Assembly (NCBI GenBank): GCA_018466975.1
Contig: CM031560.1
Coordinates: 1,302,001-1,366,000 of the forward strand
From: Sparassis latifolia
Taxonomy: Eukaryota; Basidiomycota; Agaricomycetes; Polyporales; Sparassidaceae
DNA length: 64,000 nt
Direction of reading: 5' to 3'
Under the pieces are notes generated by a model, which was not told the origin of the DNA, did no database searches, and saw only the letters and a program-made list of their open reading frames with translations. The position numbers and the translations under genes are program-made. Positions 30,101-47,487 of the stretch are shown here, one piece after another (the first letter of the stretch is position 1; each line of letters begins with the position of its first letter).

Positions 30101-32274
30101 CCCATGACATATATACGGTCCGCATCCTTGATCGTCGACAAGCGGTGGGCAATGGTGATGGTCGTGCGGCCCGCAGCGGCTTTGTCGAGCGCGTTCTGCA
30201 CGATGCCTTCGCTCTGGGTGTCAAGCGCACTGGTGGCCTCGTCGAGCAGGAGGATCTTGGGGTCGGACACAACAGCGCGCGCGATGGCGATACGCTGCTT
30301 CTGGCCGCCGGACAACAGGAAACCGCGCTCACCAACCATAGTCTCGTAACCCAACGGCAGCTTGGAGATAAACCCGTCCGCATTCGCCGTGACACACGCC
30401 TCCTTGACGAGCGCCATCTTCACCTCGTCCGACGCATCCTCATGCTCTGTGCCGATCAGCCCATGCGCAACGTTCCCAAAGATAGTCGTCGCGAACAGCG
30501 TCGGCTCCTGCGAGACGAGGCCGATCTGCGAACGCAGCCACTTGACGTTCAGATCCCGCAGGCTACGACCGTCCAGGCGCACACTGCCCGACAGCGGGTC
30601 GTAGAACCGCTCCACGAGCGAGATCACCGTCGACTTGCCCGAACCGGATGCGCCTACCAGCGCCGTCGTCTTCCCCGCCGGGAACTGGATCGTGAGGTCC
30701 TTGACGATCCGCACCTCCGGCCGCGAAGGGTAGTTGAACTTGACGTTCTCGAACGTGATCTCCCCCGCGCACTTCTCTGGCTTCAGTCCGCTTTCGTCCT
30801 GCGAGTCGATCGGCGGCACCCGGTCGATCGTCTCGTACAACTTCGCCGCTGCACCCATCCCGTGCGTAATCGCTGCATGGAACGGTCAATGGGTAGACCG
30901 AGGGATACAGGTGCAACATACCTTGCATCTCCGGCGCAAGCAGCGCCAGAGAGAACGAGCCGATGAGAATGGCCAGGATCACGTTGACGACTTGTCCTGC
31001 CGTGCCCTCACCCCTGTCGATCAGTGTCGTGCCGAAATCGAATGCTACAACCAGTCAATATCACCAACGCACTCGGGGAAAAATCACAGACTCACCGAGG
31101 GCGTAACCGCCGTAAACCACAAAGAAGAACACTGCAAGACCGCAGCCGTGGAAGACCGCCGCCTTCATGTCCACGCGCCGCGAGAGCAGGATGTGGGAGT
31201 TGTACCGATCCGAGAGCACCTCCTGCGTGCCGAACGCCTGAGCCGTGCGCACCGTCGAAAACACCTCTTCCGCAAGAGTGCCACCGTCCGCGACGTACGC
31301 GAGCGAGAGCCTGCACCGAAATTCCGTCAATATAATCGATCCACGACGGGAACGGACCGTACGCACTTCATGTACCTCGACACAAACTTGTTCATCACCC
31401 CGCCCGTCACAGCGATGCATGGAAGCATCGACGACAGCGCGAGCGCGAGCCGCCACGAGCGCACGTACGCGAGCACGAATCCCGTCACGAACGACGCAAA
31501 GAAGCTCACGCAGATCGCGACCTTCTCCGAGATGCCTTGCTGCACCAGGTGCGTGTCCGTCTGGATGCGCGTCGCCACCTCTCCCGCCCCGACGTGGTCG
31601 AAGAACGCGATGTCCTGCCGCAGGATCGCCTTCAGGTACCGCTCCCGAATCCGCTTCGCGTTCACCTCTCCCGTGTACACCCATACCAACATGTACACGT
31701 ACGTGCACACGAACATCCCGAGTCCGATGTACACCAGGTACGACGCATCCTTTGCCGCCGTCGTCCTGAAGTGGTTCTCCGCCGCCGTCAGGGCGCCCGG
31801 GTCGGTCAGCGTTCCCGCCTTGGACTCCTGCACCGTCGAGCCGAAGGTGACAAACGCTTGCACCAGGTTCCCGAACAGGAGGGACATGAGCGGCTGCGGT
31901 GCGGGGACGACGCTGTGAGCGATCAGGGACAAAACGATATGTATGTCGGACTCGCCTGTGCAGCACCTGCAGCCGCCGCGGCAATCACGCCGATAACGTT
32001 GAACGTCAACTCGGTCCTGGTAGAGAATCTGCATCGAATGAGACGGTGCCCGTAACGATGGCAGAACATGGGGCACTCACCGGAAAAGCGAAACAAAAGA
32101 GACTGGCTGGATAACCTGTGACTGCGGTGCATTGGCGGACTCGGGGGGTTCCTCAGGCTGTTCCTTGGAGGACGACTCTGTTGAGGGTACGACCTGGAGC
32201 TGGCTTTCGGAGATCGCATCGCCTTTCTCCTTGCGAGAGAAGAAACCTCGCTTCTTGGAGGGTTGGTCGGCCAT
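27197..32274 (-). CDS. Full-size ABCB (MDR-type) transporter
   Basis: A pump with two membrane and two nucleotide-binding domains, related to fungal Pmd1 and P-glycoprotein; exports hydrophobic compounds or peptides across the plasma membrane. ATG at 32274 ([12 protein letters not shown]), stop at 27197. First exons: 32081-32274, 31956-32028 and 31367-31893, with exon 4 from 31310. NBD1 has [46 protein letters not shown] and [12 protein letters not shown]. An acidic linker ([20 protein letters not shown]) follows. NBD2 has [33 protein letters not shown] and QLSGGQK, and the C-terminus ends [12 protein letters not shown]. Intron 2 needs a GC donor (CAG then GCGAGT at 31955). The whole 5' end is duplicated at 43.5-44.9 kb. 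Substrate unknown. Confidence 0.93.
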
Positions 32275-32353
32275 GACGGTGGAGGGCCTGGGTGGAGAGG
32301 GAGGGACGTGGTGAGAACGAAAGCTGTAGAGCGCCTGAGAGTGGCGTGCGGAG

Positions 32354-32370
32354 TGCCTCTTATATCTCGG
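32354..32370 (-). promoter_or_regulatory. TATA-like element of ABC transporter
   Basis: On the minus strand GAGATATAAGAGGC lies about 85 bases upstream of the ATG at 32274. The same element survives in the duplicated copy near 44720. Conservation through duplication does not itself prove function. Confidence 0.45.
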
Positions 32371-34873
32371 AGAAGGTGACGCGGACAGACGGCACGACTC
32401 ATCTTCCACCTCACGACGACGGGGCGGGTAATTTATTTCGCTCCTCTTCTGGCCTTCCGCCCGGTCTGTGCGCTAGGTGAGCTCCCTGTGCGATGTTTTT
32501 TGCAATATTTGAATCGATTTCTTGAGCTGCGACGCACGACTCGAAAATACGGTGTTCGGATGGATTGGCCGCTGACGCATCTGGCTTACATCTGCCTCGA
32601 TCGCTCGATCTGGTCCCGAGGCTATCTCAGAGCCCCTGGCCGAGCTTCCCGCGCATACTCCCACTGTGCTCGACGGCGTCCCCCGTCTCCATGCCTCCGG
32701 CCAAGTCGGACGTCGTCACTCTGACTCGACTCGTCCTCTGACGTCTCCCGCCTCCGCGGCCTGACTCTCCCCGCAGCATCCTTGGCGTGCGCTCCACCAG
32801 CCTCCGATGATGTCCCAGCGCTCTCGACCCACGCGTCCACCTGCGTCCAGCTTGGACGTCGACTGTGATCGACTTGCACGGCTGGCGCACAGCTGTTTGA
32901 CTCGCGTCCGGTGAGTGTCTCCGCGTTCTCCTGCTTCTGCACACTGGCCATCCCCACCACCGACTCTCGCGCGTCGACCTCCGCGGTGCGACAACAGCAA
33001 GCCCGGGCGTCTCTCCACTCGCAGGATCTCAGCAAGAGGCCGTGCCAGCGTTGCTCCACGGCGAGAACGTTCAGCGGACGCGCAAAAGTGACGAAGGAAT
33101 TTCGTCCTCGAGCATCGTTCCTCCCACCGACTCTCCCAGCCCATCGACATGAGAAGCTCCCCGGCGGACGCTCGCCGCTTCCTCCCCGCGGTAATACTTC
33201 CACATCGCGTGCTCTCAGCAAGAAGCAGCACGACGGCTGACAGTGCGGCACGTGTCGGACCACCGGACGCATAGAAGAACCAAGACTCCGCCCTCCACTT
33301 TGACGACATCGCGCTTCCCCCAGCACGCGTTCGACCCTCGCCCCAACTGTACGAGATCTCCGGTGCGGGAGGCTCGTCCCCGGTCTGAGCTCTACCCGCA
33401 GAGCCATCGCGCGCGCCCCTACATCTCACCGACAGGCGGCTCTGCACGATACGCGCGGAGAACGATGGGACGCGTCCACGAGACGAGACGGACCGCGTCC
33501 GCCGCCTTCAGCGTGGATCGACCTCCTCGCACATGACGGCCGCCGCGTTCGGTGTGGAGACCACGACTCGCGCGGTCCGCGGTCCGCAGCCCGGTGAGAA
33601 AGCTATTTGGGGCTGGCTGCGCGTGGAACAATACGCCCACGCGGACGCGGAGGCCGTCTCGCAGAGTGAACGAGCCCTCACGCGCACGTCGTGAAGGGCA
33701 TTGCGACCGGTGGACTTGCGGCGTGGACGGCGTATGCGAGCGCAAATGACCTCTGCGCATCGCGAAGGTGTGCGTCCTGTCGCACGTTCGTACGTAGACA
33801 CCGCGCGGACACGAAAAAATATATATTTCCTCAACTCTACTACACGCGCATCCCTCGCGCGAGCGACGACACATCGCGCCACGTAGCACCTCGACTGCCT
33901 GCTCTCGCCATCGCTATTCGGACGAACGCCACACGGCCTGCACGATCGACTCGGCGTCTCGAGACGCGCCCGTCAACGAAAACCGCCGCGTTCAGGCGCG
34001 TAGCGAACTGGGGTAGAGCACGCGTGTCCGGGCGTTGAGATATCTACCGCAGAGGGTACGCACACAGAAACCTCCTCCACCACCTCCGCGACAGCGCTCC
34101 TCCGCATCACGCAGCAGCGCGCCCGTGCCAATCCCCCAAGATCGCAAGACACGCGCCGGCGCGAGGATCACGAGCGCGACATCCTCGACATCACACGCGC
34201 TCTCTCGTCAAATTCGCGCCGACGCCGTAAAATCTACGCCGATCTACGTACTCTCACTCTGCGAGCGCTCCGCCGCATCACGGAACGGGCTACGCAACGT
34301 CGACCTCTCAGCGGGCAGAACAGAGACGGGGTCTACAGCCCGGATCTATACCACCAGTAGCGCCCCGCGCCACATCCAGCCGCGCGACAAAGCATACCGG
34401 CCCGACGTAGACTCACGCACGACGCCGAGTGCTGCGAGGTTCACGTCGGCAGCACGACACCTAGCAGAGTGTCAGCATCGCGCCGCACCAGAGAACGCGT
34501 CGCAGCATCTCATCTGTGACGCTCTAGCCGCGTTCTGCACAACGCTGGCGTCGACGTCGAAACCTGGGCCCTACTCGGAAGACGTCAGCCTCCGCAGTGT
34601 CGGGGAATACGTAACGGGCTCACCCGCGCTGTCCAAAGCATTCTCGTAGCGATCTGGGGTCGATTCCGACGTTGCGCGCCATTCGCGTGGCGGGCAAGGT
34701 GCATCACCATCCAGAAGAGCAAGAAAACCGCGCAATACTCACCTGCAAACTCGGACATCGAAGAGCGACACGCACGCGCGCCGAGGAGCCCACGAGTGGA
34801 GGGATAAGGGAGGCGGAACGACGCTGCTGGTGAGCAAACCCGGGAGAAGCTGGAGCTCTGCAGCCCAACCCCC

Positions 34874-36400: not shown

Positions 36401-37374
36401 GCCTCGATCCGAGCGTCCGGTCCCTCTCACTCCGAGGCCTTGCGTTGTGCTTGAGCGCTGAGCTCTGTCCCTCTCGCTATCGTTCTCGAATGAGCTTCAA
36501 GTCGATACAACATGTTTCTACTTTACTCTTGCAAGTTCCCGCGGCCGCTCGAACCGAAGTACCGAAGTACTCAAGATCGCTGCAGATATCTAGCGTCCAG
36601 ATGCTCTGCTTGCTCTCGACCTATCCCGTATCCTCTGTCCATTTATCCCACCGCTCTCTTGTCTCGCATATTCAGATCCATCCGTACATGCTATCTTGGC
36701 GGCGGCGGGGCCCATCCACCAAGCCACTATGTTGCTTGCTCTCCCTCTTTGTTCACACTCATTCAGCATCATCTGCCCGAAATGCTTCTGCCTTTGGTAG
36801 CCAGATTTATCTGCACTCGCATACGACTTACATCTCACTGGTCGAGTTTGCCAATCAACTACATCTTTCTAGCTTGCCGCTGCGCGACATGACTGATCCG
36901 GTAATCTGGGTATGTAGTGGATACTCTTATGCTCTGGCCTCCGAAACAGGTGAGTGTAAGGACTGTAGATACAATTAGTTACAATGAGCTCTGTAGTACA
37001 TTAGTGCTTCGACTACATCTGTAGCTGTAGAGATAGCAGAAGTACTTACCTATGCTTCTGGTTTACTGACTAACCAGGCTTATAGTGATGATGTGCCAAC
37101 CTCCCGGTCTGGATCATTCCCGACCGAGAGTTCCGTTCATGTGTGAGTATGTCAATACCGATCAGAGAGGATTCCACTGAATCATATCTAATCAGTATTC
37201 ACACCGACGGTGTCAACAAAACACACCGGGTCACAGATTGTGACCTCTCAGAAAATATGTAAGTGATGAAAATTTTGATTTAAAAATCGTGAGAAATATC
37301 CAGTGACTATGGGCAAATGCTGTGAGCAAATTTTCACACGACTTCATCAAGAGTTGAAACATTGATGCCGGAGA
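36401..37374. other. Stretch before first MITE, no gene recognised
   Basis: A plus-strand ORF at 36385-36978 is open for 197 codons and overlaps a second frame at 36512-36892. Neither has a recognised domain, and the overlap of frames argues for chance. Confidence 0.4.
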
Positions 37375-37380
37375 TTGAGT

Positions 37381-37801
37381 GCTTACAGCGCTTTGCAAGT
37401 ATATGCGGAATCGTCGTCGATGGATTTTGCGCCGAGCTCAGGACCCGAAACCGCTCAGCCACTGCAGCCACCGGTAAATTGCCCAATTGATCAGGTCCGA
37501 GAGTCCGAGCCTAGCCAAAACCAGAGAGACCGTGCCCAGAGTGTCTCATCAACCAATCGCCCCACGTGGGTTTTCTACGGCATCCTAATGCAGGAGCTTA
37601 GACAAGCTTCGGGCATGCCTCGGACAACTGCTTTTGGGAAATTCGCGTCACCGATGGCCCTCCCGGTATCCTCCACTAGACTTCCGGTAGTAACGTGCCA
37701 CTACAACAGTTTGGGGTCCTGGGCTCGGGGCAAGCTCGGGGCGCCTGAGGCCAAAAATCCATCGACGGCGATTCCGCATATACTTGCAAAGCGCTGTAAG
37801 C
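37381..37801. mobile_element. MITE-like element A (421 bp, long inverted ends)
   Basis: The ends at 37381-37428 and 37754-37801 are inverted copies of each other over nearly 50 bases (starting GCTTACAGCGCTTTGC). Partial inverted similarity continues further in. The flanks TTGAGT (37375-37380) and TTAAGT (37802-37807) look like a 6 base target-site duplication with one transition. No transposase is encoded. A 183-codon ORF that crosses the element (37375-37926) is therefore not taken as a gene. Confidence 0.75.
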
Positions 37802-37807
37802 TTAAGT

Positions 37808-38086
37808 TTGAATTGAACCATTTAAAATGCTTAGCCACTAAATTTTCGACTTTTAAGTCTCTCAGAAGTCTTAAGTCCAGTGCATATCACTTTAGAAACA
37901 CCCTCAAATACTCTTACAATGCTTGAGGCACACTGAGACTTAAGTTGGAATTTGCTGCCGGAGTAATTGAGTATGTGACACATGCTCATAATAGAAGTTG
38001 ATGGAGTGGAGTTCTCCCATCGCATGCGAGCACTGGCGCTGTCGCACTTACCTGATCGGAACAGATCACCGCCTGCACCCTCACAA
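37808..38086. other. Spacer between element A and hairpin
   Basis: AT-rich, no ORF or repeat of note. Confidence 0.4.
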
Positions 38087-38155
38087 CCAGGGATGCTTTA
38101 GGGCATCAGTCAATCCAAAGCTTCTGGATTGGCTGATGCTCTGAGGCATCCCTGG
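38087..38155. repeat. Foldback hairpin, 30-base arms
   Basis: Left arm 38087-38116 and right arm 38126-38155 pair with 26 of 30 positions identical in inverted order, around a 9 base loop. The four mismatches are all transitions. It may be a degenerate foldback element or the inverted ends of a collapsed transposon. Confidence 0.7.
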
Positions 38156-38928
38156 TGGTGGGAGTGTCAGGGTCATCACCGCCACCAAGAGCTCTGATCA
38201 GTATGCGGAGGATAATAAAGGCTGGCTTACCTTCCACAGGCTTGTCCTCCCCCCACATGCCCTCATGCTGCCAGTCCAGAGCCTGCTCACCCCTCCCTTG
38301 CCCCTTCTCCTGCCATCTACCCACTTCAACGGCATCAGCATAGGTATGTGTAAGTATTCAGCTCATTGTTTTATTGTTTCGCAGCCTCAGACTCACTTAT
38401 TTGATGTCCATAGGTCGTATGCAAAATGCGGAGGTGTGGCATCAAGTGCGAACCACGATTGCCTAAGTGGGCGATGAGATCGATCAGTAGGCGCCGGTCA
38501 CAACGCGTCTGCAAGTCCGACTTTCAGCCCATCCGACTCATGCATCTATCCCCTCGACCATCCACCCCCTCGTTACTGCTCCTCCCAACTTCAAGATGCC
38601 TTTCTGTGGTGGTCAGCACTGTGGACAACCCTGCGGATGGGTGCGGGGTGGTAAATCGAGGAGCGGGAAGCTTTGGTAGGTGATCGGTAAGTTGGTTATT
38701 TCCGTGACCACCTGTCCAATTCTGACATTTTTGTTGCATTGAAAGGTGCCAGAATTCACTGAAGATGCGAAGAGGAAGAGAGACCACAGAATCTCAGGAA
38801 TTGCAGAGGCACGGAGGTCATGGTATGGGAGTGCAGAACAAGGTATGTTCAAAATTTCGTATGTGTCTAGGGTGAGCATTTGAAATCTTGTATTTGTGCT
38901 GGTAGTGCATTCTGCAACACCCCGTCGG
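38156..38928. other. Spacer between hairpin and element B
   Basis: A run near 38205-38230 (GGATAATAAAGGCTGGC) resembles a retroelement promoter, but no long terminal repeat pair was found. No gene recognised. Confidence 0.35.
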
Positions 38929-38934
38929 CTGTCT

Positions 38935-39350
38935 CAGGACCCCCGACAATTGGTGAATAGGCCTGATCTGGAGAGTGAAAAAATGTCCGTTGGGAAAAGG
39001 CCATTTCGGGCCCAAAATGTCCGTGAAAAATTAGGCCTCACCACATTTTTTGCCTCCGCGGTCCACGTTTCTCTTCAGGTTTTAACCCTAAAAAGGTAAT
39101 TTGGGGCGCTTCGGAGCCGGCAGCTATGCCGCCTCCTCCTTGGCCCTGCCCGCTCTCCCTCGCCTGCCTTCCACAAGTGTTTGTCTGGCCTCGAATCAGG
39201 CTGCTGCCTCCCCGATGTCTGCAAAATGGCTCAGGCTATCCGGCGGTCAACCCCCCTGATTTGTCCGTGAATACCAGGCATGAGGCTCTCGAAAGTTCAA
39301 AATTTGTCCGTAACTGGCTCAGGGACCTTCCCCAATTGTCGGGGGTCCTG
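38935..39350. mobile_element. MITE-like element B (416 bp, TIR CAGGACCCCCGAC)
   Basis: Ends at 38935-38957 and 39328-39350 are inverted copies: CAGGACCCCCGACAATTGG is perfect, then a near match. They are flanked by a perfect 6 base direct repeat CTGTCT (38929-38934 and 39351-39356), a clean target-site duplication. There is no coding capacity. The TIR differs from element A, so it is a different family of similar size. Confidence 0.82.
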
Positions 39351-39356
39351 CTGTCT

Positions 39357-40520
39357 CTCCTTCCCCCTACCTGCCGTCCGATCGGCGATCATCAGAAAAA
39401 TCTCTGTGGGCTGTCCAATTGCACCCTGCGAGTAGGTGTCACTTTCAGCTCAGTGGACACTCGCCTTGACATCGTTGCATGCATGCAGCATGCAGTGTGA
39501 GCACTTGGACACGAACGCGAAGCCTCACCGCATCAAAGCACTTTACATGTCTCCTCGACATATATTTTTGGTGCTCACATTTGCATGTTCATATTAGATA
39601 TCTCAGGGTTTGTACGATGCACCCGCATTGGACCGGGGCACTCTTGGTGCCCTGGAATTTCTGCGTCACATGGACAAATGTGCACTGGTTTGCGGGTGAG
39701 TTCGCCGTAGCATGTCTCTATTTCACCATCTGACAGTCTCCTCATTCAAAGAGTGCGCCTGGTCATCAAGATCCATGCCCGATGTTGTGATCGACATTCG
39801 CACCTACCGCGTATCAGACCCATTCGCAGAAGGACGTGCAGCGTCCACTTCCTGATAGAATGCTCAGTGAGTAGCATCTCCGTTTCTTGTTGGAGTCTCA
39901 CTCATTTCGTGCAGTAGTACTACAGATTTAATATATTCATGTTTTAATTTGTCTCGTGTGATCCCGACACCCAATCTTTCAGGAAATCCACACGGCACTC
40001 TAAAGCTCAAAGCATAAGATGGAGGATGTCCCCATCAATGTCTGGGAGGCTCTCTGCATTGATGATGATGCGTGCATGCCCCGTGCATGGTTCGTCATCC
40101 CCCACTGCATCTGACTGATCTTGCAGTCTTTGCAGGCTTGAACGATATTGGCCGATGCACGGCCGCTAAATGAGATGCATTTCCTTATGTCCACGCACCC
40201 TTGATTGTGGTCGATGTGTTGACATCTGCCGAACGTTGTGGTGATATGCCGTGTAAGCTCAATGTCCTCATGTTCGGTCTCTTGTGCTGATGTTTCTTGC
40301 ATTGCTTGTTCTCGCCATTCAGCATCACCTCCGTGCGATAGATGGCCAGTTCCTGTTCATTCGTGCCCTGCCCCATGAAGACTAGTATCACCTGAGGAGC
40401 GATATTTTGCAGCGGAGGGAAGATGGCTGAAGATGTTCAACGTTGGTGCGCATGCTCAATTCCCTTGTAACATTGGTTGATGCCAGTGTTTTCTTGTTTG
40501 TGCAAATACAGGGCAAAATT
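39357..40520. other. Spacer, no gene recognised
   Basis: Short ORFs only. It leads into the degenerate repeat array. No inverted ends detected. Confidence 0.4.
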
Positions 40521-43225
40521 CCTCCTCGACATATTGTCATCCGATGAACAGCTTGCTGGCTGCATATTGCATCATCGTTCCATGTCCCATCATGCTTGTG
40601 AAGAAGACAATATTTTTCGTTCTCCAGCGAGCAACCCATGGACTCCGTTGCATGTACAGCCCTTTCTGTCTGTCAGCAAGATCCTTCACGTGCAGCAGCA
40701 TGATGGAAGCATGGCGTCATTGACAGCCTCTGTCCCTAGACTGCTCAGGTGGTAAATGAGTCTCGGCCGACGTTGTATGCCCAATGAGTGGTGTTGCCGT
40801 TCCCTTACTCACATCCTGGCGCCCTCCGTTGGTCCCGCGGCTGGACGTGATGTGTGGTAAGTGAATCCGTGGCTTCTCTCTCTCGTGGTACTAATAAGCA
40901 GTTCTCCACTCCTTATGCTGCCAGGCTGCCGTGGCACCCCTTCCCATTTTGGTGGCATTTATCGCCGTCCCACGACTGACACTCTTTATATTTGTCCTTC
41001 CTTCCCTCGGATGTCACGGTATGAAAACTGGACATCCGGAGAGCAGTGTATTGCGTGTCGGTGGGCCATGTTGTCCTTCGTCGGTGAGGGTAAGTACTCT
41101 CCTTCATCTTTTATCCCCGTGGGAGTGTGCACGGCTGATGCACATCTTTTTGTTGTGGACGCCCCATGTGTTGCTTGGCGCGCCATATGAAGCCTGGTGC
41201 TGTCATCGTTCGACGAGTGGCACGCGATGCTTTGTCTCTACTGCTGTGGCATATCACAGCAGGACGTATCATCGTCCGGTGAGCAACGCCACATACATAT
41301 CTCGCACGCAATCGCGTGCGAGTCACATCAAGACTGTATGTATTGATGTCCGGCGGGCGACATGTGACGACGGCCATCCGCGTGTACACTTCCATTCGCC
41401 AGCCACGCTCATCATTCTCCGATGAGTATCTCTTCTCCTATTCCCTCCCCGGATGCTCTCATTCGACAATGACTGTATGGATCGCCGTCCGGCAAGCGAC
41501 GTGTTTTCCCCCTTCTGACATCTCTTCTGGCCTGTCTCACCATGTGACAACTGGTGCTGTCATCATCTGGTGATCTACCCTGCATGAACATCTCTCTTTA
41601 TCCATGGTTCATGTCGACGTCCAGTGGACTTCCCTTACTCCCCCGGTCTTCTTCCTCGTGCAGTCTCATTTGACGAAGACTACACAGATCGTCGTCCGGT
41701 GAGTGTCACAGATAGGTGTTGGCCGTATCCTTCTACGCAACGTCACCTTCAATGACAACTGTATATTTCATCGTCTGGCGATTGACATCCCATCGCGAAC
41801 CTCTGGTGCCTCCCGTACATGCTCTCCCTCAACAACGATGTTCAAGGAGCTACAAGCCACGTGTGTTCTCGCGCATGGCCCCGTTCGACATTGACTATAT
41901 AGATCAACATCCGGCGAGCGTCCATGTTCCTCTGTTCATCTCCAGTGTGCAGCACATTGATCGGTGCTTTTGCCGTCCAGCGAGCAATGCGAGACGGAGG
42001 AGCAGCACGTTCCACCTCTTTTCCCCTACACCCTCTCTGCATGGACCCATTCAACGATGATGGTATAGATCGTCATCCGGTGAGCGAGGTGTGGAGCCCG
42101 TTCACCCTGATTCCTCCTCAGCCGTCACCCCTGATGATGACGGTATGGATCGCCATCCGGTGAGTGACATGTTCCCTCCCTTTCGACCTGTCTCACCAGA
42201 TGACTGGTGCTGTCATCGTCCGGTGAGCTTACCCATGCGGATGTCTCTGTTTACCCGTGGCCCGTCTGGACATCCAGTAGGCTGTGCTTATACCATGATC
42301 TCTGTCCTCATGCAGTCTGGTTCGATGAAGACTGTACAGATCGTCGTCCGGCGAGCGTCACACATGGGCCTTGGGTGTTTCCCTCTCCACAACGTCGCCT
42401 TTAACGACGACTGTATATTTCGTCGTCCGGCGATCGACGTTACAGCTCGCACCTCAAGGTCCTCCTCCAGCTGCTCCCTCTGATCGAGGACACTCGGTGG
42501 GCTCATGCCCAGTGGGTTCTCACATGCCACATCACCATGCTCGACGTCGACAATATAGATCAACGTCCGGAGAGCGTCCATGTTCCCCATCTGTTTTCCG
42601 GCATGCGGCGCATCGATCAGTACCATTGCCATCCGGCCAGCGATGCAAGACAGGAGGGCAGTGGACGTCGCCCCATATCCTGGACTCCCTGTCTGCATGG
42701 ACCTGTTCAATGATGACGGTATAGATCGTCGTCCGGCGAGCGAGGTGCGGAGCCCATTCGCCCTGGTTCCTCCACGGCCGTCGTCACCCTACGACGACCT
42801 TCACTAGTAGGTCAACATCGATGGGAACTACGAGCATCATCATTGAGAACGCCTGGGTGGCTACGGTGAGTACCCCCCTGCACTGGTGTTATCTGTATTC
42901 CTCTGACATCATTTTCCCTGACAGCTATCCTTTAACGAGTAGGCCTGGCGAGCACGTCTATGCCTCTGTTTTCGATGTTCCCCCTTTTTCTTCCGATGAC
43001 AACTGTATATATTGTCCTCCAACGAGGAGTGCGGCTCATTCTCTCTGGCCCGAGTTTGACGAGGAAACCCAGCATGACCACGGGATGCTCTTGAGTGGGA
43101 TGAGCAATTGCATTCCCTTATTCCGTGTTCATTGTGCCTGCAACGTTTATGGCCCGGGCTCTGTCATTCACCTCTGCCTGTCATGGTGGGTGAAGACTAC
43201 ATTTGTCGTCGTCGAGCGCACGTCG
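40520..43225 (+). repeat. Nested degenerate repeat array (core TAGATCGTCGTCCGGYGAGCG)
   Basis: A core close to GATCGTCGTCCGGYGAGC recurs more than 20 times at irregular steps of about 60-130 bases. Clear copies sit near 41266, 41341, 41475, 41685, 41761, 41896, 41970, 42062, 42143, 42206, 42337, 42413, 42553, 42625 and 42718. Fainter ones lie near 40525, 40600, 40957, 41196, 43005 and 43200. Many copies are preceded by GATGAYGRYTGTATA-like sequence. A larger unit of about 652-656 bases is repeated on top (about 41475-42130 and 42143-42790). Copies fall in different reading frames, so this is not one open gene. It is not CRISPR: cores are degenerate and spacers related. No known family recognised. 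Confidence 0.8.
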
Positions 43226-43529
43226 GACAATCTTGGTGAGTCCCCACATTGTCTGGGCTGTCCTTCACTAACATGCATTGTAGCCTTTGGTCTGTCGGAA
43301 TGGTGGTATCTTCATTGTGCAGATTTGGACACACTGGTGAGCTCGTAGATAGCCATTTCGCGAGAGACACCCTTGAGGCTGTCTCTGTTTTTACAAGAAT
43401 AGGCAAGGAGGGGAACAAGGACTCCACGATTCTTGCTGGATGTTACACTTAGAATTTTCGCGCGTTCTCGTAGCACAACAAATATATTTCGTACATCACT
43501 GCTACTACACCATGAGACTGTGAAGACCA

Positions 43530-44635
43530 CCGAAGACCGCCGCCTAGAAGTCCACACGCCGTTGTACCGATCCGAGAGCACCTCCTGCGTGCTGAACACC
43601 TGAGCCGTGCACACCATCGAAAACACCTCTTCCGCAAGAGTGCCACCATCTGCGATGTACGCGAGTGAGAGCCTGGATGGAAATTCCGTCAATATAATCA
43701 AACCACGATGGGAACGGACCGTATGCACTTCATGTACCTCGACACAAACTTGTTCATCACCCCGCTCGTCACGGCGATGCACGGGAGCATCGACGACAGC
43801 ACGAGCGCGAGCCGCCACGAGTGCACGTACGCGAGCACGAATCTCATCACGAACGACGCAAACAAGCTCATGCAGATTGTGACCTTCTCCGAGATGCCTT
43901 GCTGCACCAGGTGCGTGTCCATCTGGATGCACGTCGCCACCTCTCCTGCCCCGACGTGGTCGAAGAACACGATGTCCTGCCACAGGATCGCCTTCAGGTA
44001 CCGCTCCCGAATCTGCTTCACGTTCACCTCTCTCGTGTACACCCATACCAACATGTACATGTACGTGCACACGAACATCCCGAGTCCGATGTACATCAGG
44101 TACGATGCATCCTTTGCCGCCGTCGTCCTGAAGTGGTTCTCCGCCGCCGTCAGGGTGCCCAGGTCGGTCAGGATTCCCACCTTGGACTCCTGCACCGTCG
44201 AGCTGAAGGTGACAAATGCTTGCACCAGGTTCCCGAACAGGAGGGACATGAGCGGCTGCGGTACGGGGATGACACTGTGAGCGATCAGGGACAGAACGAG
44301 ACGCATGTCGGACTCACCTGTGCAGCACCTGCAGCCGCCACGGCAATCACACTGATAACGTTGAACGTCAACTCGGTCCTGGTAGAGAATCTATATCGAA
44401 TGAGACGGTGCCCGTAACGATCACAGAACATGGGGCACTCACCGGAAAAGCGAAACAAAAGAGACTGGCTGGATAACCTGTGACTGCGGTGCATTGGCGG
44501 ACTCGGAGGTTCCTCAGGCTGTTGCTTGGAGGACGACTCTGTTGAGGATACGACCTGGAGCTGGCTTTCGGAGATCGCATCGCCTTTCTCCTTGCGAGAG
44601 AAGAAACCTCGCTTCTTGGAGGGTTGGTCGGCCAT
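43530..44635 (-). pseudogene. Truncated duplicate of ABC transporter 5' end
   Basis: Near-identical to exons 1-3 and part of exon 4 of the transporter at 27197-32274, in the same orientation about 12 kb away. The copy keeps the ATG at 44635 and exon order. It has lost one base in exon 1, near 44505, where CTCGGGGGGTTCC has become CTCGGAGGTTCC, shifting the frame. It also lacks about 19 bases near 43560 relative to exon 4, and stops there, so it has no nucleotide-binding domain. Exon 3 remains open (43698-44306) with many changes such as Ala to Val, Pro to Leu, Arg to Gln/Trp/Cys/His. It cannot make a working transporter. A transcript driven by the copied promoter is possible. Confidence 0.92.
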
Positions 44636-44925
44636 GACGGTAGGGGGCCTGGGTGGAGAGGGACGTACGTGGTGAGAATGAAAGCAGCAGAGTGCCTGAG
44701 AGTGGCGTGCGGAGTGCCTCTTATATCTCGGAGAAGGTGACGCGGACAGACGGCACGACTCATCTTCCACCTCACGACGACAGGGCGGGTAATTTATTTC
44801 GCTCCTCTTCTGGTCTTCCGCCTGGTCTGTGCGCGTAGGCGAGCTCCCTGTGCGATTTTTTTTTGCAATGATTCGAATCGTTTTCTTCACTTCTAACGCA
44901 CGACGAGAAAATAATGGTGTCTGGG

Positions 44926-44942
44926 CATCAGCAAAAGTGCAC
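44926..44942 (+). repeat. Left terminal inverted repeat of 2.49 kb element
   Basis: Seventeen bases, CATCAGCAAAAGTGCAC, exactly inverted at 47395-47411. Confidence 0.88.
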
Positions 44943-47394
44943 TTTTGTTACCATCGGTTATATCGCATTATAATTTACGAAATCCATTACAATGATCAAA
45001 ATTATTAAGCAAAGTTGTAATGGATAGTAACTTCTCTACGGTGGTTCCGAACTTTTCTCAATGTCTTAAATTATTCAGTAATCCATTCGCAATCAACATA
45101 ATCTATTCCGAATGCACAGAATTCTTGGCACTTATTATAATGGATTCGAGCTTTATAAGGCATTGTGATACTCTTGTAAGCAGTACCAATGGAGGACTTA
45201 CAAATAAACAGACTTCTTCCTCACGGGCAGGGCAAGAAATGCAGTAATCATAGTACAATATTACATATGACAGGTGTGATTATCAATACAGAGCCCATGA
45301 AGCCCACATGAGCCCATGGAGATAACAACATGACACCGAACAGAGCAGGAGCACAGCACAAAAGCCGAAGAGAGCACGAGAGCTGAACATCACAAGCTGG
45401 GACAAGAAGAGCAAGACAACCACGAGAAAGTGAGCATGGAGTCTGAGAGAACGCAGGAAAGATACGAGTGAGTGAGAGGCGGTGAGAAGGCACCTTTAGC
45501 GAGTGACAGTAAACCACAACCAGAGAGACAGCGAGAGGGGAGAAATATGAGGTTGGCAGTCTCCGCACAGAAGGCTGTAAGATGTCACAGGACACGATGC
45601 ATACATCGAGGTACTTACTGTCTATAGTGATGTTGAAACGGAGGCAGACAGTAGTATGTGGCACCGAGTTCTCTTGCCAGACCGTTGCGACCGTTCTCGG
45701 TCCAGCAGTTTGCGTGATCATTCTCATCGGCCTCGGTTCATGGGATTTGACTATAACACAATAATTCAGTATGGTGGTGCAGGCATGAACACGTACTCAT
45801 TCCACCACTGAACAGCAGAATCCGGCTATGTGCGTGCATTCCCCAGTTTGTTGAATAGACCGACAAAGTTCTGGAAAAACTCCACAGTGCCAAAACTCGC
45901 CATCACACTCCGATACATCTGAGAGTTCAGCCACAGCGCACGCTCTGGAAATTCGCGGAGGCACTCACAGGCTCACATATCTAGAGTATCACTGCGCGCG
46001 CAACTCCAATGTGATCAAGCACCTAAACGTGCGGCTTGATGCCACTGTGGAGGAGAGGGCGAAGAGGATGAGCGTGATGCATGCAGGCTCAGCTGGGCAA
46101 CAAGGTGGGTGTGCATTGCTGTAGACGACGCTTCGGGATGAATGAACGGACGAGGTCGCATAACGTCACCTTCCCCGAACAATAGCTATGATGTCATTTT
46201 GGAACATCACAAGTAACAAGAACTCACTGCCATGAGGAACGGGCTTTGTATCTCCGGTATCCACACAAAGGGCCTGTCTATAATAAAGGAATCCATCAGC
46301 TACATTATCATGCAGACAATGATACATAATCATGATATCCCTCACAGTTTCTGGGGATCGCACGCCGCCTCGCTGTGTATCGATGGTGCCTAAACTCGGT
46401 ATATGCGCCCTGTATGGACACAAAGCATGAAGTCAAGGCAGTTAAGGGAGGCTGTACATCGGAGATACTTAGCACCTACCATACTCAGATAGGCATGCGA
46501 GGAGCAGAACTGCAAGAATGCATCACTTTGGAAGCAAAGCTCATAGGAAGTCTCCTGGAGAAGGGTCTTTTGGAGAGCAGCAGAAGGACTAGAAAAGTCG
46601 GTCGTAGGCAGGAGGGGAGCAGCATTGGTGGGAACCAATTCTACGGAGTTCTTGATATCTTGAAGTCGTCAGTAAAGCGGGAGGATATAAGGAGAAGGAA
46701 CGAGGGAGTATTTGACGCCAGAGGGGGCTCGCCGTCCATTATATACGCCAGGGTTAAGGTATGCAAGGAGAAACAAGCTACTACGTCATGCTCTTACTTC
46801 CAAATCGGGAAGAGTCGCTACGGGCTTAGGGCTTTGGATTTTCACCACTAGAGTATGGTAGCTGTAGGTAATTAGCTAGGTAGGTAAATTACCGACATTG
46901 AGAAATTTGACGTGGAGCACTGGATGCCTCAAGATCCTATCAATGTATTCCCGGCACATCTATACAGTGACGGAATGCAGAACTCACAGCGAACGTAGAG
47001 ATTCGAAGGTGGCCCGCAAAGGAAGCAATACTAATCTCGGAGGGCACGGTGTGTCCAAACCGTTCAGTAGATCGCTCTCTGGACTTTACGCCGTGCGTGT
47101 GCCAACCACTTGATCGACTGTTTTTGGGTCTCCCTTCGTAGTTGCTCCTGTGATTTGACAAAAATTCGCTCAACATTACAAGCACTTTGTACTCCTATAC
47201 CTACCTTACATAGCATTGCAGCACATTGTGATGCCATTGCGATGAATTGTCTATATTACTGAGGGTTGCAATACATTGGGAAGGATTACGGAGGTTGTAA
47301 TACAATCCAAATATTCCGAGGGCTTGCAATGCCGTTCTAATCTCTTACTACGTACAGGCAAGTATTACAATCGTCGGAATCTATTGTAACAATT

Positions 47395-47411
47395 GTGCAC
47401 TTTTGCTGATG
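47395..47411 (-). repeat. Right terminal inverted repeat of 2.49 kb element
   Basis: Perfect inverse of 44926-44942. Confidence 0.88.
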
Positions 47412-47487
47412 CCGGGAGAATTGGCCGCTGACGAATCTTTCTTACATCCGCCCCAATCTTTCGATCTCGCTGAGAATATCGAGGACC

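Follow-up and report, generated by a model that had tools for sequence, protein, structure and literature searches.

The CENP-B box is a 17 bp site within alpha-satellite-type DNA, in which monomers of regular length make up megabase centromeric arrays. In the repeat domains of long non-coding RNAs, examples of which are the A repeat of Xist, the Pumilio sites of NORAD and the DSR motifs of the fission yeast meiRNA, one motif occurs many times in a spliced or polyadenylated non-coding unit, and is thought to gather one protein. A conserved short site within diverging repeats is, as such, a known kind of thing. To our knowledge, a platform composed of a multivalent array of one site has no counterpart in fungi, and we have not seen described a set of many small, dispersed arrays that mostly have the site alone in common.

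Repeat arrays are usually dismissed as decaying noise. The array described here, in the genome of the cultivated edible mushroom Sparassis latifolia, contains its own internal control, in that its spacers are of the same age and in the same place as its cores. Counting this one, the genome holds at least nine such arrays, mostly unrelated beyond the core, and these provide replicates in the search for whatever reads the motif. The core itself is short enough for pull-down tests.

The core array in the window

The window is the whole stretch of 64,000 nucleotides that was analysed (C9:1302001-1366000). Its + strand carries 19 cores of 30 bp between 40522 and 43029 at a threshold of ≥10 bits, and 18 at ≥12 bits, according to a model built from seven other loci; 100 dinucleotide shuffles gave means of 0.03 and 0.02 respectively. 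No cores reach 10 bits on the - strand of the array or in 25,286 bases of + strand flanking sequence, and the sole additions made by this model across both strands of the whole window are two - strand places scoring 9.0-9.2 bits. The cores start at 40522, 40605, 40950, 41017, 41257, 41331, 41470, 41677, 41756, 41892, 41958, 42058, 42138, 42201, 42329, 42408, 42548, 42714 and 43000; the highest scoring out of sample lies at 42408..42437 (31.1 bits), and that at 42714..42743 (TGACGGTATAGATCGTCGTCCGGCGAGCGA, 27.6 bits out of sample) is also among the best.

A 36-bp model trained on the array itself gives 26 + strand matches in the window, 23 of them within 40516-43223 and three weak ones elsewhere, and three weak matches on the - strand, none of which is in the array. 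Five weaker 36-mer copies, starting at 41185, 41542, 41596, 42608 and 43188, are detected by this model only. A pattern allowing three mismatches yielded ten matches, compared with none in 100 shuffles, and a repeat search of 40520-43225 recovered a 28-base family of 15 copies, together with pairs of 186, 132 and 112 bases lying 652-656 apart. The latter reflect a higher-order unit of around 654 bp, found both by this search and by blastn of the window against itself, the two + strand copies of which (41469..42126 and 42137..42782) are 72.6% identical over 671 columns.

The earlier note on this DNA had described a nested array of more than twenty diverged copies, 60-130 bases apart, and had proposed shuffled sequence as the control. 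The array is real, with firm cores far above chance as judged by the out-of-sample model, the shuffles, the other strand and the flank; shuffled sequence did not give as many matches as the array, and the 72.6% identity of the two unit copies bears out the nesting. The firm copies number 18-19, twenty being exceeded only when the weakest are counted, and the core-to-core steps, at 63-345 bp, are more uneven than had been claimed. Tandem Repeats Finder returned no rows for the window, a silence to be expected of copies this diverged. A simple tandem satellite or minisatellite is rejected on this absence of rows, the 63-345 bp steps and the uneven decay.

The array was also correctly placed between small inverted-repeat elements and a duplicate of an ABC gene. 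Upstream, a MITE-like element at 37381-37801 has 53-base inverted repeats, 94% complementary and 315 bases apart, while the palindrome at 38076-38166, with 42-base arms (83%), is probably a small inverted-repeat element; it resembles several microRNA precursor families below the Rfam gathering scores, and accounts for the only matches in a relaxed Rfam search of 36900-43560. An ABC transporter gene has its 5' part (31199-32549) duplicated, at 93% identity, at 43561-44913, which begins about 70 bases past the 3' block of the array described below, the copy being cut off close to this block. The region upstream of the ABC fragment is split by a 2.49-kb insertion bounded by 36-base terminal inverted repeats (44924-44959 and 47378-47413; 86%), such that 32564-32611 matches 47420-47467; this insertion is probably a DNA transposon.

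At least nine arrays share the core

The 41.4-Mb genome was searched with four patterns, allowing at most three mismatches; these matched 18, 34, 16 and 35 times, compared with none for each of the reversed patterns, and a shorter core pattern gave 23 matches as against none for its reversed control. The bare 18-mer given in the earlier note matched 121 times as against 61 for its control, and is alone too short as proof of kinship. The matches of the five pattern searches fall into nine clusters, from which more diverged arrays may have escaped, and these correspond to nine or more arrays, around 0.6-2.5 kb in length and each with 3 to 19 cores in a single direction, the nine lying on six contigs. 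The earlier note, in describing an array that is itself sound, had seen one of at least nine. Besides the window locus (C9a; 18-19 cores), there is a second array on the same contig at 2.428 Mb (C9b), and there are others on C6 at 2.389 Mb, C11 at 0.508 Mb (C11a) and 1.003-1.027 Mb (C11b), C2 at 1.159 Mb, and C7 at 1.693 Mb and 3.127 Mb (C7a and C7b, with three cores each). The ninth, on C10 at 2.089 Mb, was predicted from one genome match and then found to contain six cores, all on one strand.

A joint model identifies 86 cores in the first eight loci, counting C11b once despite its three copies, and none on the opposite strand; 85 of these lie in arrays, the six cores of C10 being extra, and the remaining one, a 15-bit match 8.4 kb off the C6 array, was left out of the identity and intron counts. 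Out of sample, cores were found at all eight loci, totalling 88 at ≥12 bits, with none at this threshold on the opposite strand of the eight arrays or in 129,659 bases of same-strand flank, where four matches appear at ≥10 bits; this leave-one-out procedure is not perfectly clean, as core positions elsewhere were first set by the joint model, and C7a and C7b, like C9a and C9b, are partly paralogous.

The core (YGACNNNATATTTCGNCGTCCGGCGAGCGG) is 27-30 bp long. Over the 85 copies, information is confined to about 27-30 columns, summing to around 23.5 bits, and is near zero outside them. Over 27 columns, the mean identity of two cores is 0.66 if they belong to one locus and 0.60 if they come from different loci, values that are somewhat inflated because copies were picked by score, whilst adjoining 27-column stretches are near random, at 0.33 within and 0.28 between loci. 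The cores of one array are almost as unlike each other as they are unlike cores elsewhere, and most spacers no longer resemble each other between loci; a search of the genome with the whole window array matches only itself, hence the spacers are not recognisably common to the loci. No consensus fold was predicted for 22 core sequences, and an RNA hairpin formed by the core was accordingly rejected. A comparison with viral contigs gave no exact matches.

Steps within arrays range from 36 to 576 bp, and higher-order duplication is locus-specific. The C6 array includes a regular unit of 271 bp, present three times. At C11b, an 11-kb unit is present in three tandem copies, 99.2-99.4% identical, plus the start of a fourth (C11:999824-1032810), and each includes a core array and an ORF of an uncharacterized Sparassis family, one copy of which shifts frame; a ribosomal spacer was considered for this unit, which is of rDNA-like length, and rejected for want of an Rfam match. 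In C2 (8677-9473 of the segment analysed), a related motif near GCAAAATTCGAGATTCGGACKCCCCGCGAGC and an intron-like stretch are copied in three units beside the cores, and a sister form of the core is also present at C9b. Next to the C10 array, a 71-base sequence rich in GGGTA/GGGTAC occurs twice in identical form, the copies lying 192 bases apart (segment positions 2469-2539 and 2661-2731).

The window and C9b have two blocks upstream of the array and one downstream in common, in the same order. The upstream blocks, shared among the loci compared by these two only, lie on the + strand at 37142..37199 (81% identical, and readable by eye as an intron, GTGAGT..CTAATCAG) and 38193..38277 (74%). 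A stretch resembling an exon, upstream of the C9b array, is unique in the genome and without a Pfam match. The 3' block (43345..43490, +), identified by blastn between loci and nhmmer, is also found at C6; it ends abruptly in AAATATATTTC, and at all three loci is downstream of the array in the same orientation. Its nhmmer profile scores 121 bits at C9b, 114 at C6 and 112 in the window, all three being the profile's own members, and the best other match in the eight loci is 3.6 bits; with C10 also lacking it, the block is present at three of the nine loci. A hairpin within the block (43363..43386, +; AGAGACA/TGTCTCT in the window) is predicted to be strong in C6 and C9b (z = -4.6 and -2.8, with none of 200 shuffles folding as well in either case) and weak in the window (z = -1.5; 15 of 200 shuffles); its stems differ in sequence by locus, and are longer and GC-rich in C9b and C6. 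A longer stretch, with 79% identity over 637 bp and more, is common to C7a and C7b.

The earlier note knew of no fungal repeat family that matches, in agreement with which there is no Rfam match at the gathering score and none in the literature listed. Rfam 15 at this score gave no matches in 39000-45000 of the window or in 38 kb at C11. Searches for Sparassis, Polyporales and basidiomycete repeats, satellites and non-coding loci returned no such arrays among the matches listed, which comprised titles and the starts of abstracts and had subscription journals outside their coverage, and a term search of the paper describing the 39.0 Mb S. crispa genome had no occurrence in the text covered (PMC6207663).

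Conservation, coding potential and predicted transcripts

As the two unit copies in the window are of one age, their cores and spacers can be compared directly. With a 27-column core, 84.1% of 189 core positions are identical as against 68.3% of 460 spacer positions (p = 2.7e-5), a test that also includes pairs in which just one member retains a scoring core; an analysis with 28 core columns gives 81.2% of 224 and 68.5% of 426 (p = 6e-4). CpG transitions account for 22 of the 42 core differences in the latter analysis, and with such transitions left out of the 27-column comparison identity is 92.4% in the core and 74.8% in the spacer. Across core definitions the cores are 81-86% identical and the spacers 68%, bearing out the previous observation that the core is better kept than the sequence between copies. 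CpG depletion was rejected as a sign of methylation, the arrays as a group being no lower than their flanks.

Selection on the core or repeated conversion had been suggested as the cause. The seven pairs of cores in corresponding positions of the unit copies show 84% identity, and pairs in non-corresponding positions 66%; hence the cores are not being homogenised across the array, and ongoing conversion among them, judged on this difference between cognate (0.84) and non-cognate (0.66) pairs, is disfavoured. Selection fits the window better, but the test of core against spacer is mostly negative at other loci. No difference was found in four comparisons at C6 (p from 0.46 to 1), and that between C7a and C7b is in the wrong direction (69% in core and 77% in spacer; p = 0.10). 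At C11b, one pair has 89% core and 65% spacer identity (p = 9e-4) and two others give p = 0.53 and 0.77, this one significant result in three being that obtained when copies that have lost the core are counted. The constraint thus fails at two of the three other loci tested and is mixed at C11b. Within the trio of young C11b copies, SNPs occur as often in the array (18 in 2548 columns) as outside it (58 in 8431), and three of the 18 fall in cores, as against 2.67 expected. Hence constraint on the core is demonstrated in the window, and the comparison across loci implies that it has acted over the long term, but it is not general.

It is very improbable that the arrays are the remains or exons of a repetitive protein. 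The core is around nine codons long, and one frame, reading D-x-x-I-F-R-R-P-A-S, has the fewest stops (in nine of 82 cores, compared with 33 and 23 in the other frames), the longest median open stretch (86.5 codons as against 52 and 67) and slightly less information at third codon positions (column averages of 0.76 as against 0.96 and 0.90). However, nine cores have stops even in this frame, the core-to-core steps fall into all three phases (25, 30 and 21 of 76), the indels between the window unit copies are of 5, 4, 12, 3, 1 and 1 bases, and spliced test translations of C11b and C2 contain stops. A 140-codon ORF in the array has words in common with 11 database proteins, none reaching E ≤ 1 among the candidates scored. 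No reading frame is common to the repeats, the arrays do not read as coding, and a gene for a repetitive protein with its frame kept across the repeats is rejected on these grounds. Twenty-nine long ORFs selected from the flanks of eight loci have Pfam matches to Myb, the ABC membrane region (two) and aldo-keto reductase, with a weak NAD-binding match below the cut-off; the sole mobile-element match is a copia-type gag with a zinc knuckle at C2, and no mobile-element protein beside the arrays is common to the loci. Three further ORFs had no Pfam match above the cut-off.

A consensus scan predicts introns on the + strand of the window at 40857..40901 and 42866..42924, both within the array and not overlapping any core, and at 43236..43283, leading from the array to the 3' block. 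Under a strict consensus, the arrays contain six predicted introns in sense (C9a, C9b, C2 and C7a) and four in antisense (C11b), where shuffles lead to an expectation of about 0.7 per strand over eight loci. All ten are without a core, compared with 5.15 expected; under a loose consensus this is true of 12 of 13, compared with 6.74 expected, the other one covering a core. The product of the ten single intron chances is 0.001, an overstated figure, as several of these introns duplicate one another. Since those of C11b are antisense, RNA from that locus would carry the complement of the core. C11b and C2 also have a related ORF (33.6% identity over 134 aa), which precedes the array by around 2 kb. 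Of database proteins, just one matched the C2 copy, an uncharacterized protein of Sparassis crispa with 98% identity across 82% of its length. A link of the arrays to a common upstream gene was rejected, as the 5.5-5.7 kb around and after two other members of this ORF family are free of cores; the family has eleven matches, five further copies being outside this comparison.

These data suggest that some factor in the cell reads the core. We tentatively favour dispersed non-coding loci that are transcribed and spliced, with the exonic core as the site for one RNA-binding protein. The core would be a recognition site, which local unequal exchange may multiply such that many sites come to lie side by side, and which purifying selection would keep as the spacers drift. 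The loci would most likely be transcribed and spliced with the core staying in exons, and the mature RNA would then bear many sites for one RNA-binding protein, as a scaffold or decoy. That the site acts as RNA rather than DNA is the weakest step, and confidence is held down by the antisense introns of C11b and by the negative constraint tests. We rank next, as a less probable reading, a double-stranded site for a sequence-specific DNA-binding protein, serving as a silencer, heterochromatin seed, boundary or transcription factor site, the uniform orientation arising merely from tandem duplication, as with CENP-B boxes in diverging satellite DNA. A 27-bp site with sharp edges, about 23.5 bits and random spacers is the expected look of such a platform, and it would also accommodate a core without a fold whose orientation relative to predicted transcription varies by locus. 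However, avoidance of predicted introns is needless for a DNA site, and the spacings are not consistently phased with the helix: two out of the 13 periods examined between 9.6 and 12 stand out, namely 9.6 (p = 0.02) and 9.8 (p = 0.004), before any correction for multiple testing. Nothing seen ties the arrays, in their nine places on six contigs, to centromeres.

Less probable again, and in our judgement unlikely, is an inert or selfish family, either an old non-autonomous element or a satellite, in which the core looks conserved because the model picks matching copies. The 3' block that ends abruptly at three loci, as element ends do, would suit such a family, as would constraint tests that are negative at two of the four loci examined and give a mixed result at another, young C11b SNPs that are not rarer in cores, and the inverted-repeat elements and terminal-inverted-repeat insertion near the window array. 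However, uniform decay should not yield cores that are 60-66% identical next to direct neighbours at 28-33%, nor window cores better kept than spacers of equal age; the copia-type gag at C2 is the one mobile-element match in the 29 selected flank ORFs, and unsystematic inspection revealed neither terminal repeats nor target duplications at the arrays. With the repetitive protein, largely refuted, ranked far below these, the RNA site remains our preferred explanation. It is conceivable, if doubtful, that mushrooms of this group have array loci that offer one 27-30 bp site to an RNA- or DNA-reading factor while the surroundings turn over.

Comparison with described systems

Non-autonomous mobile elements with subterminal repeats resemble these loci in being dispersed and non-coding with internal repeats, and the 3' block and hairpin common to three loci add to the likeness. 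They differ in that here no transposase is common to the loci, most of which have the core only, and no element body, in common. Satellite DNA with CENP-B boxes is alike in having a short conserved site in diverging tandem DNA, and higher-order units; in contrast, the core here is 27-30 bp, recurs at steps of 36-576 bp in arrays of around 0.6-2.5 kb, and is scattered over nine places with spacers that are mostly unrelated between loci. Unlike the repeat domains of Xist, NORAD and meiRNA, the arrays have transcripts that are putative, carry a longer motif and occupy at least nine loci rather than one gene, with the predicted introns of one locus on the opposite strand; what they share with these domains is many copies of a motif in one direction, in sequence that keeps no reading frame.
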